From positions 310,001 through 374,000 of the forward strand of contig NZ_OZ034984.1 in assembly GCF_964030865.1 (NCBI RefSeq): a stretch of DNA of 64,000 nt, given 5' to 3'. The position numbers and the translations under genes are program-made. Below the pieces are notes generated by a model, which ran no database searches, was not told the origin of the DNA, and saw nothing but the letters and a program-made list of their open reading frames with translations. Shown here in pieces: positions 35,711 through 45,852 of this stretch (its first letter is position 1; each line of letters opens with the position of its first letter). This stretch comes from Spiroplasma endosymbiont of Dioctria linearis (lineage in GTDB: Bacteria; Bacillota_I; Bacilli_A; Mycoplasmatales; Mycoplasmataceae).

Positions 35711-36010
35711 ATGAAAAAAGGTTTATTAGTTTGCAGTGGTGGTATTTCAACTACAATGATTGCAAAAAAATTAAATGAATGTGCTAATGGTTATATTGAA
35801 TTTGAAGCCAAAGGCATAATGACTGATACAAGTTGATTAGACTATTTAGAAGATTACTCAATATTGCTTGTATCACCACAAATCAAGCATATGTATTCAA
35901 AACTTGAAGAAGATGTTGATGGAAAAATCAAAATGATTCAAATTGATGCTCAGTATTTTAATCTTAATTCTATTGCACAATTTTGAGAAAAAAATAAGGA
36001 GAGTATATAA
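35711..36010 (+). CDS. PTS lactose/cellobiose-type EIIB
   Basis: 99-residue cytoplasmic phosphotransfer protein with the phosphocysteine loop LLVCSGGISTTMIAK (Cys8) of the lactose/chitobiose EIIB family. The stop codon overlaps the start of the EIIC gene (TAATG). GGAGG precedes the start. It opens a long operon-like run to 45.5 kb in which EIIA is the last gene. Confidence 0.9.
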
Positions 36011-37404
36011 TGGGCTCAAAAGGTAAAGATTCAAAAGAGGACTCAAAGTTCAAAATTTGAATGAATAATAAATTAATACCATTTTTTGGAAAAATTAGTA
36101 CTCAAAGGCATTTATTAGGTATAAGAAATGGAATAATGGCAGCATTACCATTTATTTTAGTAGGAAGTGTATTTTTAATTATTTCAAGTATTCCAATAGG
36201 GACTGGAGATGGACAATTATTATCTACACTTTTTCCACAGCAATTAAAAGTTGCTTTTGATCTAATTAACAGATTTACTTTTGGTATTATGGCTCTTTAC
36301 ATGGCAATTGGTATAGGTTCTGAACTTGCAAGGTTAAGCAGATTAAGTTCAACTCAAGGTGCTGTAATAGGAGCAATGGGATATATAATGTGAATATTAC
36401 CACTATCTTTGAACGTAACTGTTCTTTCTGAACAAGAAGCAGCTCAATTAGCGGAATTATTAGATAAAACAGGTGTATCTTTTAGTATTTTAAAAGGTGG
36501 ATTATGAATTAATATAAAAGATTTAGGAGGTTCAACTGCTTTTGTTGCAATTGTTTCCTCTACAATTTGTGTAGAGATTTATAGAGTTTGTCTTAAATAT
36601 AGAATAACTATTAGATTACCAAAACAAGTTCCAGATGCTGTAAGTAATTCCTTTTCAGCACTAGTTCCAATTTTCTTTGGAGCTTTGATTATAGGTTTTA
36701 TTAGATACATTGTTGGTTTTGATTTAGCAAATTTTCTTAAAGATGCATTAGCACCAATGGGAAACTTTTTAGTAAGTAATTTATTAGGAGCTTTAATTAT
36801 TATATTTTTAATTGTATTTTTATGATGATTTGGAATTCATGGAGGTTCCCTTGTTCAATCCATTACGAGACCTTTTTGAATAATTGCTTTGGAAGAAAAC
36901 CAAGAAGCATTTAAGAATGGTGAGAAGATTCCTAACTATTTTATAGAACCATTCTTTCAATGATTTGCCCAGGTAGGTGGAGCGGGAAATACTTTAGGTC
37001 TTGTTATTGTTGGTTCAATAATGTCTAAATCTGCTACACTAAAATCTATGTCAAGGACAAGTCTTGTACCAGGAATATTTAATATTAACGAACCAATATT
37101 ATTTGGTTTACCAATATTATTAAATCCATTTATGTGGGTTCCATTTGTATTGGGACCAGTTGTATCAGCTACAATCGGATATTTATTACAAATTACATTT
37201 GGTATTCATTGAGTGACAATGGCTCCTTGAACAATGCCAGGACCATTGGGAGCATTTTTTGCAAGTGGTAATCAATGGCAATCTTCAATAGCTGCATTGA
37301 TTGTATTAGCATCATCAATTCTAATTTGATTTCCATTTACACTAGCATATGATAGATTTTTATTAAAAAAGGAAAAATTAGATAGTGAGTCAGGAGTTTT
37401 ATAG
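36010..37404 (+). CDS. PTS lactose/cellobiose-type EIIC permease
   Basis: 464-residue membrane component with about ten hydrophobic helices. Family marks are the N-terminal PFFGKISTQRHLLGIRNGIMAALPFILVGS region (cited in parts), WWFGIHGG, and FNINEPILFGLPILLNP near residue 360. It is separate from EIIA and EIIB and has no coiled-coil tail, unlike the beta-glucoside and sucrose permeases in this window. Start overlaps the EIIB stop by one base. Substrate is probably not plain cellobiose, given the catabolic enzymes that follow. Confidence 0.9.
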
Positions 37405-37683
37405 GTGAATACATTTACTTTATTAATAATTTTCACTTTATTAAGTTTTACTAATTGATTAGCTTCTGTTTTTACTTATAAAAAATGTGAAGGGAAATTA
37501 AAGGGTAGAAATTTATTTATTGGAATTATAGGATTTGTATTATTTATTGGTATAAGCTGATTAGTGGCATTATTTCTTCCCATGATAGTATTAATTATTT
37601 TTATAAGTTTCTATTTGCCATGATGATTAAATTATATGTATTATTTATTAAAGCAAAATAAAGTTAAGGAAAGGATTTTTTAA
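37405..37683 (+). CDS. Small membrane protein in the PTS island
   Basis: 92-residue protein starting with GTG immediately after the EIIC stop (TAGGTG). It has three hydrophobic stretches (about 4-22, 38-60 and 62-80) and a short basic tail. Not recognised. Its tight placement suggests an accessory subunit of the transport system. Start codon choice depends on the coupling with EIIC. Confidence 0.55.
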
Positions 37684-37686
37684 ATT

Positions 37687-38118
37687 ATGAAAAAAATAAA
37701 TGAAGATTCAATAATCAAAAAAAAGAAGGATTTAAAGAAATATTGTAATAATTGGGTTGTTGTTTTAGCAGTTCTTACAATTATTTTATACGTAATATAT
37801 TTTACAATTCTTTGAGAAGAGTGAGGTGGTACTAAAAATTTATTTGGAAATAACAATTCAACCATGCTATTATTTGGCTTAAGTTTTTTAGTAATAGCAT
37901 CTTTTATTTATGGATCTAACAGAAAAAAATTTAGTGCTATAAAATGAATTATTTATTTCATATTATTTTTTATGGCGGGACTTTTATTGAATAGTATTAT
38001 CGGATTTGTAATATGATCATTCCTACTTCTTTTTACTGGACTGGAAATTATTTTTAATATTGATAAATTTAAAGAATTAAAAAAGGATAAAAAAAATGAG
38101 ACTAGAACAAATCAATAA
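37687..38118 (+). CDS. Membrane protein in the PTS island, unknown function
   Basis: 143-residue protein with about four transmembrane helices (about 23-43, 59-75, 85-100 and 103-122) between basic, hydrophilic ends. Not recognised. It starts 3 nt after the preceding small membrane protein and overlaps the next gene by 23 bases, so it is part of the same operon. AAGGA lies upstream of the start. Confidence 0.6.
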
Positions 38119-38602
38119 ATTTGAAAGTGTTTTATTTAAAAACAATATCTCTGAAATAAATAGAGTTTTTTCATCGGAGGTTTTCTTTAAAATTGACTTA
38201 ACTAATTGTGAATTCTGAGAAGAGTTTTTAGAATATTTATTTTTAAATTTAAAAACAAAAAACTTTAAAAAAGAAAAACTAAAAAGGGGAATTAATTTAA
38301 ATATTGCTGATACAAAAGATAATATAAAAAATTATATAATTACTGAGTATAAGGAAGGTGAATGTTTAGAAATTGCTAATATAAATTCTAATCAAACTGT
38401 TCTAACAAAAATATTTATTAGAGCAAAAAATAACAATGGAAGATACCCTACAAATATTTGATATCTAGAGTCGCAAAGAACACTAAATGAAATAAGTAAA
38501 AAAGAACATAAAAAATTGCAAAGTACTTTCAATGCGAAAATAATTAATAAAGTTATTCTTTTAAAAGATTATTTATTAAATAAGGTAAGAGATATTAAGT
38601 AA
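38096..38602 (+). CDS. Unknown cytoplasmic protein, possibly DUF3284-like
   Basis: 168-residue soluble protein without signal or membrane segments. Size, fold-like pattern of strands, and location in a cellobiose-type PTS cluster recall the DUF3284 proteins of Firmicutes PTS loci, but I see no decisive motif and give that as a possibility only. It overlaps the upstream gene by 23 bases, and its stop codon overlaps the next start (TAATG). Confidence 0.6.
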
Positions 38603-39708
38603 TGTTAAAAATTTTAAATATAAAAGATATTAATAACAACTTAATAGATATATATATATTAAAGGGATTAATCTTTTTAAAAAAACCTCTAAGATTTAAA
38701 GAGAATCAATTTAGAGAAATAAATTTAGATAAAGATACATATGTTAGTTATGGTTGAATTGATAGTCATGTTCATTGTGATAATGAAAATAAATTATATG
38801 GTTCTATTATCGATGAAATTGGATATAAAAAAGGAGTAACAACAGTAATAGATGCAGGAAGCGTTGGAATTAATGGGATTGAAAGAATGTGAGGAATTAA
38901 TAAAAAAAATATTACAAATTTAAAAATACTACTTAATATTTCTCAAAAGGGAATTTATAGACAATCAGAGTTATCAGATTTAAGGGATATTAAAATTGAT
39001 TATAATAAAAGGTATGAGAATTTTATTGTAGGTTACAAAGCTAGAATGAGTAATTCTGTTACACTAAATACTGGTATAGATTCTTTATCAATTTTTTCTA
39101 ATATCAGAAAAAATAAAAATATAAAAAAACCCTTAATGATTCATATAGGTAATGAACCTCCAAGTTTTTTTGAAATAGTAAAATTAATAAAAAAGGGAGA
39201 TATAATTACACATATTTTTAATTATAAGAATAATTCAATTTTTAATAAAGATTTTACATTAACAAATAATTTAAAGAATGCAATAAGAAAAAAAATATTA
39301 TTTGATGTTGGACATGGAAATGAAAGTTTTATATTTGATTGTGCTAAAGGAGCTTTTGAAAATAATTTTATTCCTGACATTATAAGTACAGATATTTATG
39401 AAACAAATATTAAAAATAATAAAGTCAAATCTCTTGCTGTAACAATGAATAAATTTAAAAAAATCGGTATGAAATGAAGTGACATCATTGAAAGAGTTAC
39501 AAAAAAACCATATGGTTATTTCAAAATTAAAAAAATGGGAGAAATAAAAAATAAAAACATTGCAAATTTAACATTTTTTAAAATTACAAAAAATAAAGAG
39601 TTAGAGATTGACTCAAGGGAAAATATTTTAAAAATAGAAGAGCAAATAACTCCTGTTGCAGTTATTGTAAAAGGTAAATTTTATGAGGTGAATAATAATG
39701 ATAAATAA
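38602..39708 (+). CDS. Amidohydrolase/deacetylase-family metallohydrolase (EF_0837-like)
   Basis: 368-residue metal-dependent hydrolase. Family ligands are all visible in order: His-x-His in GWIDSHVHCD, the carboxylated-Lys motif GYKARMS, His in LMIHIGNEP, His in THIFNYK, DVGHGNESF, and the catalytic Asp in ISTDIY. Enzymes of this group sit beside DgaE/DgaF-type genes in Enterococcus and Enterobacteria and are thought to deacylate or deaminate an amino-sugar derivative. It overlaps the DgaE-like gene by 11 bases. Precise substrate unknown. Confidence 0.85.
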
Positions 39709-40753
39709 ATTTAGAAAAGTAATTAATGCTGATGGAAGAATGACTATTTTGGGAGTCTCAAAATTTAATTCAGAAGTGGCTCAAGCTATGGAATATGCAG
39801 GAAATAATTTTTTTATTATGTCAGAATTTAAAAATTACATTAATGATGAAATAAAAAAAATAATTAAAACTGAAAATGTTTGTGTTGTTAATTCTGCTTC
39901 TGCTGGTATAACATTAGCAGCAAGCGCAGCAATATATAAAAATAAAATTTATGATGTTAATAAAATTATTCCTGTAAAGAAAGAGATAATTTTAGCTAAG
40001 GGTCATAATATTGATTTTGGTGCTCCAATTGAGTCCTTATTAAATTTAGTTAATACAAAAGTGATTGAGGCAGGATATGCAAATAAATGTAATGTTGAAG
40101 ATTATCAATATTATATAAGTGAGAATACAGTTGCAGTACTTTATATAGTATCCCATCATTGTGTTCAAAAAAATATGGCTTCATTAGATGAAGTTATTGA
40201 ATTATGTAAAAAAAATACTGTTCCACTAATTGTTGATTGTGCTGCTGAAGAAGATATTTTAAAATATTCAAAAAAAGATATAGATGTTGTTATTTTTTCG
40301 GGATCTAAAGCAATTGAAGGTCCAACTTCTGGTTTTGTTTTTGGAAAAAATAAAGAACTCATTGAAAATATTAAAAGACATCAAGAGATTATTGGCAGAA
40401 CAATGAAAATAGGGAAAGAAAATATTTTCGGATTATTGAAGGCTTTAAAAAAATATAAAATTAATAAAAATATTGATTTTGAATCATATTTTAAAATATT
40501 TAATTTAAATAAAAATATAAAATGTAAAAAAAATATCGATACAAGAGGTATTCAAAGAATACGCTTTGAGATAGTCAATAATAAAGTTAGTGCAATACAG
40601 CTGTCAAAATATTTAAAAAGTTGTGATGTAGCTATTTATCTTAGAGACTATTTTGCCAATCAAGGTTATTTGGATATTGACATTAGAAATATAAATCTTA
40701 AAGAAGCAAATATTATTAATGATTCCATTTCATTATTTTTAGAGGGGAAATAA
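39698..40753 (+). CDS. DgaE-like PLP-dependent ammonia-lyase
   Basis: 351-residue SelA-like fold, pyridoxal-phosphate enzyme. Schiff-base Lys204 lies in FSGSKAIEGPTSGF, typical of DgaE (D-glucosaminate-6-phosphate ammonia-lyase) rather than selenocysteine synthase, and the C-terminal selenocysteine-tRNA domain is absent. DgaE converts 2-amino-2-deoxy-gluconate-6-phosphate to 2-keto-3-deoxy-gluconate-6-phosphate. The next gene encodes the aldolase for that product, which strengthens the call. Confidence 0.85.
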   Translation: MINKFRKVINADGRMTILGVSKFNSEVAQAMEYAGNNFFIMSEFKNYINDEIKKIIKTENVCVVNSASAGITLAASAAIYKNKIYDVNKIIPVKKEIILAKGHNIDFGAPIESLLNLVNTKVIEAGYANKCNVEDYQYYISENTVAVLYIVSHHCVQKNMASLDEVIELCKKNTVPLIVDCAAEEDILKYSKKDIDVVIFSGSKAIEGPTSGFVFGKNKELIENIKRHQEIIGRTMKIGKENIFGLLKALKKYKINKNIDFESYFKIFNLNKNIKCKKNIDTRGIQRIRFEIVNNKVSAIQLSKYLKSCDVAIYLRDYFANQGYLDIDIRNINLKEANIINDSISLFLEGK

Positions 40754-40755
40754 AT

Positions 40756-41508
40756 ATGAATAATAAAAAAATAAAGTTTTATAAAAATAGAGTATGCTTG
40801 AATGTCTTAGCAAAAGATATAAACAATGCAAAAGAAATTATTGATGCTACGGATGGAAATGTAGTTGTTGGTATTTTATCAAAAAATTTTAAAGATGATG
40901 AATCCGCTTATAGTGAGATGATAAAATGAAAAAAAGAAACAAATAATAAGATAAGTATTGGTTTAGGATCTGGAAATCCAAAGCAATCCTACATGGTAGC
41001 AAGATTAACCAAGAAAATAAATCCTGCACATACTAATCAGGTTTTTACTGGTGTGGGTCTGTCAATTAATAATTTTGAAAATAATAATACCTTTATAAAT
41101 TGTCTTGTTTCTCCAACTGGTAGACCTGGATATGTAAAAATAAATACTGGACCATTAAGTTCATCAGTTCATAATGAGGATGCCATTGTTGAAATTAATA
41201 CTGCAATACAAATTATAAAAGATATGGGGGGAGACTCAATAAAGTTTTTTCCAATGAATGGTCTTTCAACTATTCAAGAGTATAAAATTGTTGCTGATGC
41301 TTGTGGAAAAAATAATTTTTGTTTAGAACCTACAGGAGGAATTGATTTAAATAATTTTGAAGAGATACTAAAGATTGCAATTAATGCTGGAGTTAAATTA
41401 GTTATTCCTCATGTTTATAATTCTATTATTGATAAAAATAGCGGAGAGACTAACATAAAAAAGGTAAAAGAATTATATAAAATAATTAGAGGTCAAATAT
41501 ATGATTAA
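40756..41508 (+). CDS. DgaF-like KDGP aldolase
   Basis: 250-residue class I aldolase predicted to split 2-keto-3-deoxy-gluconate-6-phosphate to pyruvate and glyceraldehyde-3-phosphate. The Schiff-base Lys163 is in DSIKFFPMNG; CLVSPTGRPGYVKINTGPLS and EPTGGIDLNN are further family marks. It follows the ammonia-lyase by 2 nt and overlaps the glycosidase gene by 8 bases. The products enter glycolysis directly, so the whole branch yields pyruvate. Confidence 0.88.
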
Positions 41509-42613
41509 ATTAAAAAATAAATTAGGCATTTCTATTTATCCAGAGTTACTTAAGTTTGAAGAAATAGTTTCATATTTGGAACTTGCAAGTAAATATTCAT
41601 TTGACTTATTATTTATAAATTTTATTGGAGTTATTGAAAAAAAAGATCAAAGTCTTTTAAAAAAATATAAAGAAACTATAATAGAAGCAAAAAAAAGAAA
41701 TTATACTGTAACTATTGATGTTAATAAATCTACATTTGATACAGCTAATATTAATTATAAAAATCCAGACTTAAAATATTTTTATGAGCTAGGAATCAAT
41801 TGTTTACGCTTGGATGATCAATTTAATGGTTTTTTTGAAGCAAATTTAACTTATAATCCTTATAATATTAAAATTGAGCTAAATCCTTCAACATTTAATG
41901 CACAAATTGAGAATATTATAAGTTATGGTGCCAATAAGCAGAACTTACAAGCGCTTCATAACTTTTATCCTCAAAAGTATTCTGGATTGGATTATGAGTT
42001 ATTTAAAAAATATAATTTAAAAATAAAATCTATGGGTATTAACATTGGAGCCTTTGTTACAATAACAGATCATAAAAGCTACGGACCTTGGGATGTTAGT
42101 GAAAATCTACCAACTCTTGAGATGCATAGATTTTTAGAAATTGGAATGCAAGTTAATCATTTATTATCAAATGATTATGCTAGTTATATTTATATCTCTA
42201 CACAATGTGCAAATATAAATGACTTTGAATCAATACTGAGGCACTTTGATTTTAAAAAACATTTTAAAATTAACTTAATAAATGGTGTTACTGAGCAAGA
42301 AAAAAGAATATTAGCTTTTAATAATCATTTTATTAGAGGTGATTTATCTCAAAATATTTTAAGAAGTACTATTACAAGAGTAGAATTTAAGGATATGGAT
42401 ATAAAACCAAGAAAATTCAAGGGTGATATAATACCTATAGGATCTATAGTTATTCCAAATAATTCCTACAATAGATATAAAGGTGAATTGCAAATTGTTA
42501 AACAAGAAATAAAAAATGATGGTTTAAGAAATGTAGTAGGTTCCCTACAAGATAAATATTTATTTTTAATTAATGAAATTCATCCTTGAAATTATTTCAA
42601 ATTAATTTTTTAA
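41501..42613 (+). CDS. MupG/DUF871-family 6-phospho-glycosidase
   Basis: 370-residue TIM-barrel protein with a C-terminal beta domain, as in MupG (6-phospho-N-acetylmuramidase) and other DUF871 proteins. The N-terminal NKLGISIYPE and the RLDDQFNG and LNPST elements are family marks; the C-terminal domain holds RGDLSQNILRST and GDIIPIGSIVIPNN. MupG cleaves intracellular MurNAc-6-phosphate-GlcNAc. Here the enzyme probably cleaves the phospho-disaccharide delivered by the PTS. Overlaps both neighbours (8 bases and 1 base). Confidence 0.82.
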
Positions 42614-43821
42614 TGCTAAAGGTTTTTATTGATCTAGGAACCACCAATTTAAAAATAGAAACGTATAATCATAAAAAATTAATTGAGAAGCTTACATTTT
42701 TAAATAGACATATATATTTTGATAATGATAATTACTTTTATGCAGATAAACTGTTTGAATTTTTAAAAAAATATTTTATATCTTTAAATAATAAGTACGC
42801 TCAAAATATATTTATTATATTTTCTTCTGCTATGCATACATTAATATTTTTAGATGAGAATTATAATCAAATAGATAAAGGTCGTTCCTTTTTAGAAAAA
42901 GTAGACTTTAAACTAAATGAAGAGAAAAAAATTTTTTATAGAAAAATTAATAAATTAGTAAATTCAGAATTTTTACCCATATATAAAATCAATAAATTTA
43001 GTGAGATTAATTATAATTCAATAACAACTTTAAAAAGTTATATTCTATATAAATTTACTTGTGAGAAAGTAATTGAAATATCAGATGCTGTTGGGTTAGG
43101 ATTGATTGATTCTAAAAATCGAGTTTTTAGTAAGGAAATAATTAGTAGCATAAACTTAAAAGAAGAACTATTACCACAATTAATTCTCGAAAGAAAAATA
43201 TTTGAATGCAGTCTCAAAAAATTTATATTAAAAATAGATTTGGGTATTTCTGATGGAGCCTCAGCTGCCATTGGATCTGCTTTTAATAAAAATAGTATTT
43301 CATTATCAATAGGAACGACTCTTGGAATAAGATACATTACATCAAAATTTGTAGATACTATATGAGACTTTGATTATTGCTTTCCAATATATAATGATAA
43401 ATGAATTTATGGTATTTCTTCATCAAATGGTGCAAACAATATTGAATTAATTATTTCAAAAATGAATTTAACTTTAGATGATTTGAACAATATTGATTTT
43501 TCAAATGCAAAATTAATTAATAAAAAAATATTTTTCTATAAAGAGAGATTTAATCAAAGTCTTTTAGAAATTAATGAGACTAATTTTAATATTGATTTAT
43601 TATATACATATATTATTCAAATGATTAATAGAGTAAAAAAATATAAAGATATAATTGATTCAAATAAAAAAAATAAATCTCAAATTATTGCAACAGGTGG
43701 TTTATTTAGTAATATTCATATTGCAGCTTTATTTAAAAAAGAGTTTAAAAATGATATAATAATTTCAAAAGATAATAATTTATCAATAACTGGATTAAAA
43801 GAAATCATCCAAAGATGATAA
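42613..43821 (+). CDS. FGGY-family carbohydrate kinase
   Basis: 402-residue sugar kinase. The first phosphate loop is VFIDLGTTNLKIE; the second ATP motif is around SISLSIGTTLGIRY; GVSDGASAAIG (as LGISDGASAAIG) and QIIATGGLFSN complete the FGGY core. At about 400 residues it is shorter than typical FGGY kinases (about 500). It would phosphorylate the non-PTS-phosphorylated half released by the glycosidase, for example a sugar acid like gluconate. The start overlaps the stop of the glycosidase gene. Confidence 0.8.
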
Positions 43822-43832
43822 GGGATAAAATT

Positions 43833-44660
43833 ATGTCAAATGTAATAACAAAATTAAAAAAAATAAGAGTAAATAATGAATCTGATGCAAATATTGCAAA
43901 TTATGTTATTGAGAATATTGAGATTATGGATAATATTGATATTAGGGATTTAGCAAAAAAAATAAATCATTCTACAAGTAGTGTAACTAGATTTATCAAA
44001 AGATTAGGTTATAGCTCATTTAACGAATTTAAATATGAAGTAAAAAACTATATAAATAGCATTTTAATAGATAGTAAGTATAAAAATATTGATAATGAAA
44101 AATTAAGCATGATAATAAAAAAAGAAATTGCTTACATTAATGAAATTCTTGAACATAATATTTTAATATGAACTAGAGATAAAAACATTGATGAAATAAT
44201 TGAAAAAATAATGATCTCAAAACAAATATTTATTTTTGCCTTGGGTGGAACTTATAGTGTTGGTTATGATTTTTGTCTAAAATTACAAAGATTAGGATTT
44301 AATTCAAGCGTTTCAAATGACTCTGTGATTCAAGAAACTCTTATAAGTGCTAATTCGGGAAAGCCTGGGTGCTTATTTATAATTTTCTCACTTTCTGGTG
44401 AAACAAAACAGCTGATCTATGTTGCTGAAAAGATAAATAAAAGAAAAATGTTTTTAATTTCTTTTACAGGAATTGAGAACAATACAATTAAAAAGTTATC
44501 AAATTTAAATTTATCTATTTTTAATAATGATAACCACTTTAAATCACTTATTAAAGGAAATAGAATATCTTTTATATTTCTTATTGATATTTTAATTCAA
44601 TTAATTATAAATCAAAACAGTGAGAAAAATTATAAATCAGTTTTAGTTACTACAAAATAG
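43833..44660 (+). CDS. MurR/RpiR-family transcriptional regulator with SIS domain
   Basis: 275-residue regulator, the most complete of the three RpiR proteins here. HTH at about 36-64 (DIRDLAKKINHSTSSVTRFI, KRLGYSSFNEF) and a recognisable SIS domain (about 125-245) with FALGGTYSVGYDF, FIIFSLSGETKQL and FLISFTG. It lies inside the operon it presumably controls. The start at 43833 is preferred over 43815 because AAGGGA then has 8-nt spacing. MurR-type ligands are amino-sugar phosphates, in line with the enzymes around it. Confidence 0.85.
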
Positions 44661-44673
44661 TTAGGGAAGGTTT

Positions 44674-45220
44674 ATGAAAAAAATAAATGAAAGAGAAGTT
44701 AGTCAGAAAAATTACTTAAATGGAAAGCCATGGCGTTGATGAATTAAACTTATTCTAATTATTTTATCAATATTACTTTTTATTATTTTGATTTGGGGAT
44801 TTGCCTTTAAAGGCTTTTTATATATTGAATATAAAAATAAAACAATAAAATATTATAATCAAATTGTAATACAAGAAAACAATGAAGAGGTTTGTAAGGA
44901 ATTAGATAATGCGTCTGAAAAATTTATATCTAGATGTAAAGAATTTAGAGAAAAAAGAAATGTCTATTATGATTATCAAAAAGGTAATGATGTTATATTT
45001 AAATATATATAAAATTGAATCTTTAGCATCTAGTAACTATATTATTTTTTCAGTTACAAATACTTACTTTAATGATATTAGAAATAAAGAAAATGAAAAT
45101 AATGAAGATTTATTAATGAACTCTACTTTTTTTGTTTATAAAAAAGAAAATAAAAAATGATATCTTGAAGATTTATTATTTCAATATAAGGATATAGAAA
45201 AATTAGGAGAATACAAATAA
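44674..45220 (+). pseudogene. Membrane-anchored protein with a single-base frameshift
   Basis: The first frame gives 112 residues with one transmembrane helix (about 24-50, WIKLILIILSILLF) and then a coiled-coil-like external part, stopping at 45012. A +1 frame continues the protein smoothly without its own ribosome site: LNIYKIESLASSNYIIFSVT to KWYLEDLLFQYKDIEKLGEY, stopping at 45220, 1 nt before EIIA. The break falls in an AT-repeat stretch (TTTAAATATATATAAAA, about 44998-45014). Either the gene is newly frameshifted, or the sequence has an indel error, or two short proteins are made. Function unknown; it lies within the PTS island. Confidence 0.6.
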
Positions 45221-45221
45221 A

Positions 45222-45527
45222 ATGAATGAAGAAATTATAAATGTTAGCATGGAATTAATAGCAACATCAGGAACTGCAAAATCATTGGCTTTATCAGCAA
45301 TTAATATAGCTAAAAATGGTGATAAAGAAGGGGCAATAAAATTGATTTCAGAAGCTAAAATAGAATTAAATAAGGTTCATAATATTCATGGTGATTTAAT
45401 TTCAAAAGAAGCAAGTGGTAAAAAGTTAGATATTTCATTACTTTTTATACATTCCCAAGATCACTTAACAAGTGCTATTATTATTATGGATTTAGCTGAA
45501 CATTTAGTTAATTTATACACCAAGTAA
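45222..45527 (+). CDS. PTS lactose/cellobiose-type EIIA
   Basis: 101-residue helical phosphotransfer protein with phospho-acceptor His77 in LLFIHSQDHL, matching the lactose/cellobiose EIIA trimer family. It completes the EIIB and EIIC pair at the start of the island 9 kb upstream, an unusual spread. It starts 1 nt after the frameshifted membrane-protein gene, with TTAGGAG as ribosome site. Confidence 0.9.
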   Translation: MNEEIINVSMELIATSGTAKSLALSAINIAKNGDKEGAIKLISEAKIELNKVHNIHGDLISKEASGKKLDISLLFIHSQDHLTSAIIIMDLAEHLVNLYTK

Positions 45528-45606: not shown

Positions 45607-45852
45607 TTTGGAATTATTTTTTGCGGAACAGGAGTTGGAATATCATTAGCTGCAAATAAAATAGAAGGAGTAAGAGCAGTTGTTTGTAGTGAACCTTACA
45701 GTGCAAAACTTTCAAAGGAGCATAATAATACAAATATTTTATCCCTTGGCTCAAGAGTTGTAGGATTGGAACTTGCAAAAATGATAATTAGTGAATGAAT
45801 TAATGCCACTTTTGAAGGTGGTAGACATCAAAAAAGATTAGATATGTATTAG
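45607..45852 (+). pseudogene. 5'-truncated rpiB (ribose-5-phosphate isomerase B) remnant
   Basis: 81 codons match the C-terminal half of RpiB/LacAB: FGIIFCGTGVGISLAANKIE, VRAVVCSEPYSAKLSKEHNN, ILSLGSRVVG and FEGGRHQKRLDMY. The catalytic Cys (FCGTG) is present but the N-terminal 60-70 residues with the GxDHAG motif are missing. The sequence in frame upstream is unrelated, with no start codon or ribosome site. It is a dead fragment left just beyond the EIIA gene. Confidence 0.85.

Follow-up and report, generated by a model that had tools for sequence, protein, structure and literature searches.

A putative 14-gene operon for an aldonic-acid-ended amino-sugar disaccharide in a Spiroplasma endosymbiont of Dioctria linearis

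The window analysed here is a stretch of 64,000 nucleotides from the Spiroplasma endosymbiont of Dioctria linearis (contig NZ_OZ034984.1, positions 310,001 to 374,000). It contains, at 35711-45527, an uninterrupted run of 14 genes on the forward (+) strand that overlap or are separated by a few bases. Frames were read with genetic code 4 (TGA = Trp), and most genes of this island are broken under table 11. The island combines a lactose/cellobiose-family phosphotransferase system (PTS) with an amidohydrolase, a DgaE-family ammonia-lyase, a DgaF-type aldolase, a GH170 phospho-glycosidase, an FGGY kinase and an RpiR-type regulator. There is a slightly better than even chance that it forms one operon for the use of an N-acylated amino-sugar disaccharide ending in an aldonic acid, most likely chitobionate, a fragment of C1-oxidised chitin.

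The reactions proposed below, their substrate and the sequence of the kinase and deacylation steps are deduced from gene content, conservation, catalytic residues and co-occurrence. The PTS components EIIA, EIIB and EIIC would import the disaccharide, phosphorylating its non-reducing sugar. The GH170 enzyme would split the product into N-acetylglucosamine (GlcNAc) 6-phosphate, passed to chromosomal NagA, and free N-acetylglucosaminate. The FGGY kinase would phosphorylate the free acid at C6, the amidohydrolase would strip the acyl group, DgaE would release ammonia to give 2-keto-3-deoxy-6-phosphogluconate (KDPG), and DgaF would cleave KDPG, yielding glyceraldehyde-3-phosphate and pyruvate. An intermediate of the pathway may be sensed by the RpiR protein. 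The initial annotation had sketched disaccharide uptake by the PTS, cleavage by MupG, a kinase, deacylation, deamination and aldol cleavage. This outline is supported, chiefly by the co-occurrence of kinase and GH170 genes.

The co-occurrence was seen in a wider survey, in which a contig scan with a DgaF alignment yielded 80 named bacterial loci; a single-sequence DgaF query gave none. GH170 lies near DgaF in 25 of the 80 loci, paired with the amidohydrolase–DgaE–DgaF set, and 23 of these 25 also carry a lactose/cellobiose EIIC label. Of the 25 GH170 loci, 24 have a PfkB gene resembling 2-keto-3-deoxygluconate (KDG) kinase near DgaF, against 3 of the 55 loci without GH170 and none of the 46 with a DUF431x transporter only. 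A kinase that tracks GH170 can be understood from the fact that cleavage of a PTS-imported disaccharide by a phospho-glycosidase frees one half without a phosphate; a transporter delivering a phosphorylated monomer makes a kinase unnecessary. At three loci (L059, L061 and L081), DgaE and DgaF are accompanied by four unlabelled genes (about 135, 165, 250 and 280 aa) and one of 940 aa, which, judging by size, are as expected for a mannose-type PTS and its regulator. The amidohydrolase is missing from these loci, which fits its role as an N-deacylase. The linkage of DgaE and DgaF to a cellobiose-type PTS and MupG, initially regarded as new, is thus common in Firmicutes, and no paper describing Firmicutes PTS–GH170–Dga clusters was found in the open-access literature. 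The distinctive features of the island are an FGGY kinase instead of PfkB, an RpiR regulator, extra small genes and a mollicute host.

Families were assigned by Pfam and NCBIfam library searches, and relatives in the PDB by profile or alignment. These searches, together with the code 4 reading frames, bear out the position and family of every gene named in the initial annotation, which had overlooked four conserved small genes (mem1, mem2, u168 and mem3). The key catalytic residues it had listed (metal ligands, Lys204 and Lys163) were recovered by alignment in the amidohydrolase, DgaE and DgaF. The EF_0837-type amidohydrolase, a proposed sugar-acid N-deacylase (38602..39708; TIGR03583, 2e-104; 2ICS, E = 9e-70), retains the HVH motif, the Lys of GYKARMS, the His of MIHIG, the His of THIFN and the Asp of STDIY found in the 2ICS family. 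With these HxH/Lys/His/His/Asp motifs it belongs to the EF_0837 group and not to the OngB-type deacetylases, which have a subtype V Cys/His/His site.

The DgaE-family ammonia-lyase (39698..40753; TIGR01437, 4e-104; 7LC0/7LCE, E = 3e-55) aligns its H153, H154, K204, R287, R316 and R330 with H162, H163, K213, R301, R332 and R346 of 7LCE. The roles of these residues have been described, with the substrate phosphate docked near Arg301/332/346 (PMC9529869). The three arginines are invariant in all 78 compared sequences, across every transporter type, suggesting a phosphorylated substrate throughout; this favours an order in which phosphorylation would precede deamination. As a marker separating clusters for phosphorylated substrates from those for free ones, the arginines failed, being invariant in all. 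The DgaF-type KDPG aldolase (40756..41508; NF047796, 1e-107, over cut-off; 3LM7, E = 3e-82) has a Lys163 that is invariant in the alignment.

The predicted GH170 6-phospho-beta-glycosidase of the MupG/ChbE type (41501..42613; PF19200 and PF05913; 1X7F, E = 1e-73) matches MupG_N (5e-73) and MupG_C (9e-33), both over the gathering score. The ATG at 42613, which overlaps the MupG stop codon, is the most likely start of the FGGY kinase gene (42613..43821; FGGY_N, 6e-10). Its product, a proposed sugar-acid kinase, is divergent; in the PDB, its profile matches gluconate kinase alone (3GBT/3LL3, E = 1e-19), and the structure model is poor (pLDDT 42). Since the pathway after the glycosidase step needs an aldonic-acid kinase, this kinship fits; the predicted kinase of the unrelated FGGY family apparently replaces the PfkB kinase in the island.

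The lactose/cellobiose-family PTS is encoded at both ends of the island. EIIB (35711..36010; PF02302, 7e-08; TIGR00853, 2.5e-12; kept in the relatives' loci L007 and L009) has, by inspection, its Cys8 phosphorylation site in LLVCSGG, and EIIC occupies 36010..37404 (PF02378, 2e-53; TIGR00410, over cut-off). The EIIA of the lactose/cellobiose/chitobiose family (45222..45527; PF02255, 4e-29) contains, again by inspection, the motif IHSQDH; it matches TIGR00823 (1e-27) and the diacetylchitobiose IIA model PRK10454 (6e-19), both below cut-off. The RpiR/MurR-type regulator (43815..44660; PF01418, PF01380) has an SIS domain, and its best NCBIfam models, AlsR and MurR, fall below their cut-offs. A promoter scan was uninformative (95 sites against 92 expected).

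The 14-gene island is found in identical order in three genomes of the genus, that of the window (G000), G029 and G034, in loci that include L007 and L009. The ratio of non-synonymous to synonymous substitution rates (dN/dS) is 0.02-0.41 for every island gene tested, including mem1, mem2 and u168; mem3 lay outside the test. The same order in two further genomes, together with purifying selection, indicates that the gene arrangement is not due to chance. Of the 60 genomes in the family, 6 have a KDGP (phosphorylated KDG) aldolase; the three of these without the island have the amidohydrolase–DgaE–DgaF core beside genes matching the DUF4310-4312 transporter in size and order, labels that rest on homology among loci. 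PF14272 (SFCGS) is absent from the window genome, so a DUF431x system is apparently lacking there. A concatenated tree places the island core with L008, a DUF431x-type Spiroplasmataceae locus (support 100). The GH170 of the island clusters with that of Firmicutes, apart from the GH170 of most Spiroplasmataceae (0.94). As these placements differ, the operon appears to have been assembled from parts with different histories.

Concerning the substrate, the gene set implies that the released half must be an N-acylated 2-amino aldonate. The best-known compound of this kind is GlcNAc1A, which C1-oxidising chitin lytic polysaccharide monooxygenases (LPMOs) leave as an end group. The best candidate, proposed with moderate confidence, is therefore most likely chitobionate, GlcNAc-beta-1,4-N-acetylglucosaminate. 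The GH170 protein ChbE and a cellobiose-class PTS were shown by genetics to be needed for diacetylchitobiose use in Lacticaseibacillus paracasei (PMC12791066), and a separate GlcNAc1A pathway has been established in marine bacteria (PMC9537276, PMC12017989). NagA is encoded in all three island genomes. Among 105 Enterococcaceae genomes, an AA10 LPMO is present in 39 of the 54 with GH170–DgaF linkage and 5 of the 51 without it (odds ratio (OR) 24, Fisher P = 4e-11); stratified by listing block, the OR is 28 (P = 0.001). The insect AA15 LPMO yields aldonic-acid chito-oligosaccharides (PMC9156745), and a mollicute associated with arthropods might not need an LPMO of its own if the host AA15 enzyme supplied oxidised chitin.

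It is possible, but fairly unlikely, that the pathway is right but acts on another 2-acylamino-aldonic acid glycoside, for example one differing in its non-reducing sugar or its acyl group. The genes fix only the N-acyl 2-amino aldonate half, and GH170 comprises several clades with differing neighbours. A Streptococcaceae locus from a metagenome-assembled genome (L074) has EIIC, the amidohydrolase, DgaE and DgaF, with a GH1-type phospho-glycosidase in the usual place of GH170. C1-oxidised chitin is, however, the best-known source of such compounds, the LPMO co-occurs with the GH170-linked cluster, and EIIA and EIIC both give below-cut-off matches to PTS models for diacetylchitobiose.

Several observations weigh against a working chitobionate operon. 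The LPMO association lies mostly between subclades, and in the stratified test listing blocks stand in for the subclades. Among the few other named Firmicutes genomes there is no association, the LPMO being found in roughly 2 of 9 cluster-bearing genomes and 3 of 8 that lack the cluster. The window genome has GH18 genes in five places, including three adjacent GH18 lipoproteins at L139:12515-16681. These lipoproteins weakly resemble endo-beta-N-acetylglucosaminases and need not be chitinases; they may be either chitinases or N-glycan enzymes. EIIB and EIIC (dN/dS 0.02 and 0.03) are the most constrained genes, several times more so than the enzymes, so the transporter may serve a second sugar or role; both are 97% identical to those of G029, downstream island genes are 69-85% identical, and dS is similar.

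The PfkB kinase of the relatives matches KDG kinase models, which allows another order of steps. The kinase would then act on KDG after deamination, and the amidohydrolase and DgaE would take unphosphorylated acids, as with KdgK in the marine oxidative chitin pathway; Pseudoalteromonas runs a deacetylase, a deaminase and KdgK (PMC9537276). This order is judged rather improbable, given the invariance of DgaE Arg301, Arg332 and Arg346 in all cluster types and with gluconate kinase as the closest relative of the kinase in the island.

The gene for mem3, a membrane-anchored protein (44674..45220), is frameshifted near 45005 in the window genome; its two fragments match genes in L007 and L009 that are intact at 184 aa. 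The frameshift may reflect decay or a sequencing error. Together with an RpiB remnant just downstream, it could mean that the island is decaying and its pathway no longer works. Such decay is very unlikely: the enzyme and PTS genes are all intact, the tested genes are under the purifying selection described above, and the RpiB remnant belongs to the neighbouring operon.

Recycling or scavenging of N-acetylmuramic acid (MurNAc)-GlcNAc from peptidoglycan is another conceivable function, as GH170 was founded by MupG, which acts on MurNAc-6P-GlcNAc in Staphylococcus aureus (PMC6262408). The regulator is of the RpiR/MurR type, and inspection showed that some Enterococcus GH170 paralogues lie beside genes resembling anhydro-MurNAc kinase and GlcNAc kinase. 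However, two of the three island genomes (window and G029) lack the MurQ etherase, which G034 encodes, and the island has no MurP-type PTS. Moreover, the acid-specific DgaE and DgaF would be left without a role, and the organism is wall-less. This function is highly improbable and was rejected mainly on the missing MurQ. Peptidoglycan, hyaluronan and heparin, suggested earlier as sources of the substrate, fit less well than oxidised chitin, given the absence of MurQ, the lactose/cellobiose type of the PTS and the lack of any lyase or uronate gene within the island.

Chitobionate use as proposed here would have parts in common with several known systems. The Firmicutes EIIC–GH170–amidohydrolase–DgaE–DgaF–PfkB clusters share the five core functions of the island and, in 19 loci, have a small protein after EIIC. 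They differ in having PfkB and, where examined, a GntR-type regulator in place of FGGY and RpiR; their EIIA and EIIB are often encoded elsewhere, and mem2, u168 and mem3 are missing from the fetched loci. The Salmonella DgaABCDEF pathway for D-glucosaminate has the DgaE/DgaF chemistry and catalytic residues in common with the island, but employs a mannose-type PTS (DgaABCD), and neither GH170 nor a kinase or deacylase has been described in it. EF_0837/AHA_391x-type loci share the amidohydrolase–DgaE–DgaF core and differ in their DUF4310-4312 transporter and in lacking GH170 and a kinase. Lacticaseibacillus paracasei ChbABC–ChbE (PMC12791066) shares the cellobiose-class PTS and GH170; it includes a DUF3284 protein, ChbD, encoded between EIIC and GH170, and lacks the sugar-acid enzymes. 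The Pseudoalteromonas ong pathway (PMC9537276) shares deacetylation, deamination, a kinase leading towards KDPG and an RpiR-type regulator; unlike the island, it relies on a periplasmic GH20, an SSS symporter, the D-aminoacylase-like OngB and a different deaminase, without a PTS. The MupG/MurP/MurQ system of S. aureus (PMC6262408) likewise combines a PTS with GH170, whereas the window genome has no MurQ and the island PTS is of the lactose/cellobiose type.

The remaining small genes are kept in L007 and L009. The small membrane protein mem1 (37405..37683) has no clear sequence match beyond the three islands among the fetched loci compared; an unlabelled protein of similar size lies between EIIC and the phospho-glycosidase gene in 19 named Firmicutes loci. 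The island-specific genes mem2 (37687..38118; dN/dS 0.23) and u168 (38096..38602) encode a predicted membrane protein and a soluble protein, respectively. No credible Pfam match for u168 was obtained, nor was a counterpart seen in the other fetched loci. A relation of u168 to DUF3284 has no Pfam support, and its structure model (pLDDT 47) is too poor to interpret.

Downstream of the island, a remnant of ribose-5-phosphate isomerase B (RpiB) is found at 45622-45852, comprising the C-terminal half (Pfam LacAB_rpiB). The matching place in a relative (L007:684-4658) contains an intact RpiB, a ribulose-phosphate 3-epimerase-family gene, a PTS EIICB and a regulator, which points to a probable loss of this operon from the window genome. 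Of 60 Spiroplasmataceae genomes, 45 encode GH170. Both the window genome and G034 have a locus in which GH170 lies with a ROK kinase gene and PTS parts (L138:8222-14676 and L140:2929-9146); the freed half there would be an ordinary sugar, unlike that in the island. G029 has a third GH170 (L141:3545-10467) together with an alpha-L-fucosidase, a BadF-type kinase and all components of a lactose/cellobiose PTS; this locus may act on fucosylated cores of N-glycans.

LPMOs that oxidise chitin are widespread among arthropods and Gram-positive bacteria. In the open-access literature searched, a described route for oxidised chitin ends was found only in marine Gammaproteobacteria. As a tentative reading, judged less likely than not, the Firmicutes clusters might constitute a widespread, undescribed PTS route for oxidised chitin, and its mollicute version, with a kinase of its own, might feed on fragments oxidised by the host AA15 enzyme. 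If so, the route would be the Gram-positive counterpart of the marine one, and EF_0837-type amidohydrolases would gain a function, as would one GH170 clade that contains the orphan structure 1X7F, a protein falling among the members of Bacillus-type clusters. The symbiont would then use a by-product of host moulting, with the insect cuticle as a possible source of the oxidised chitin fragment.

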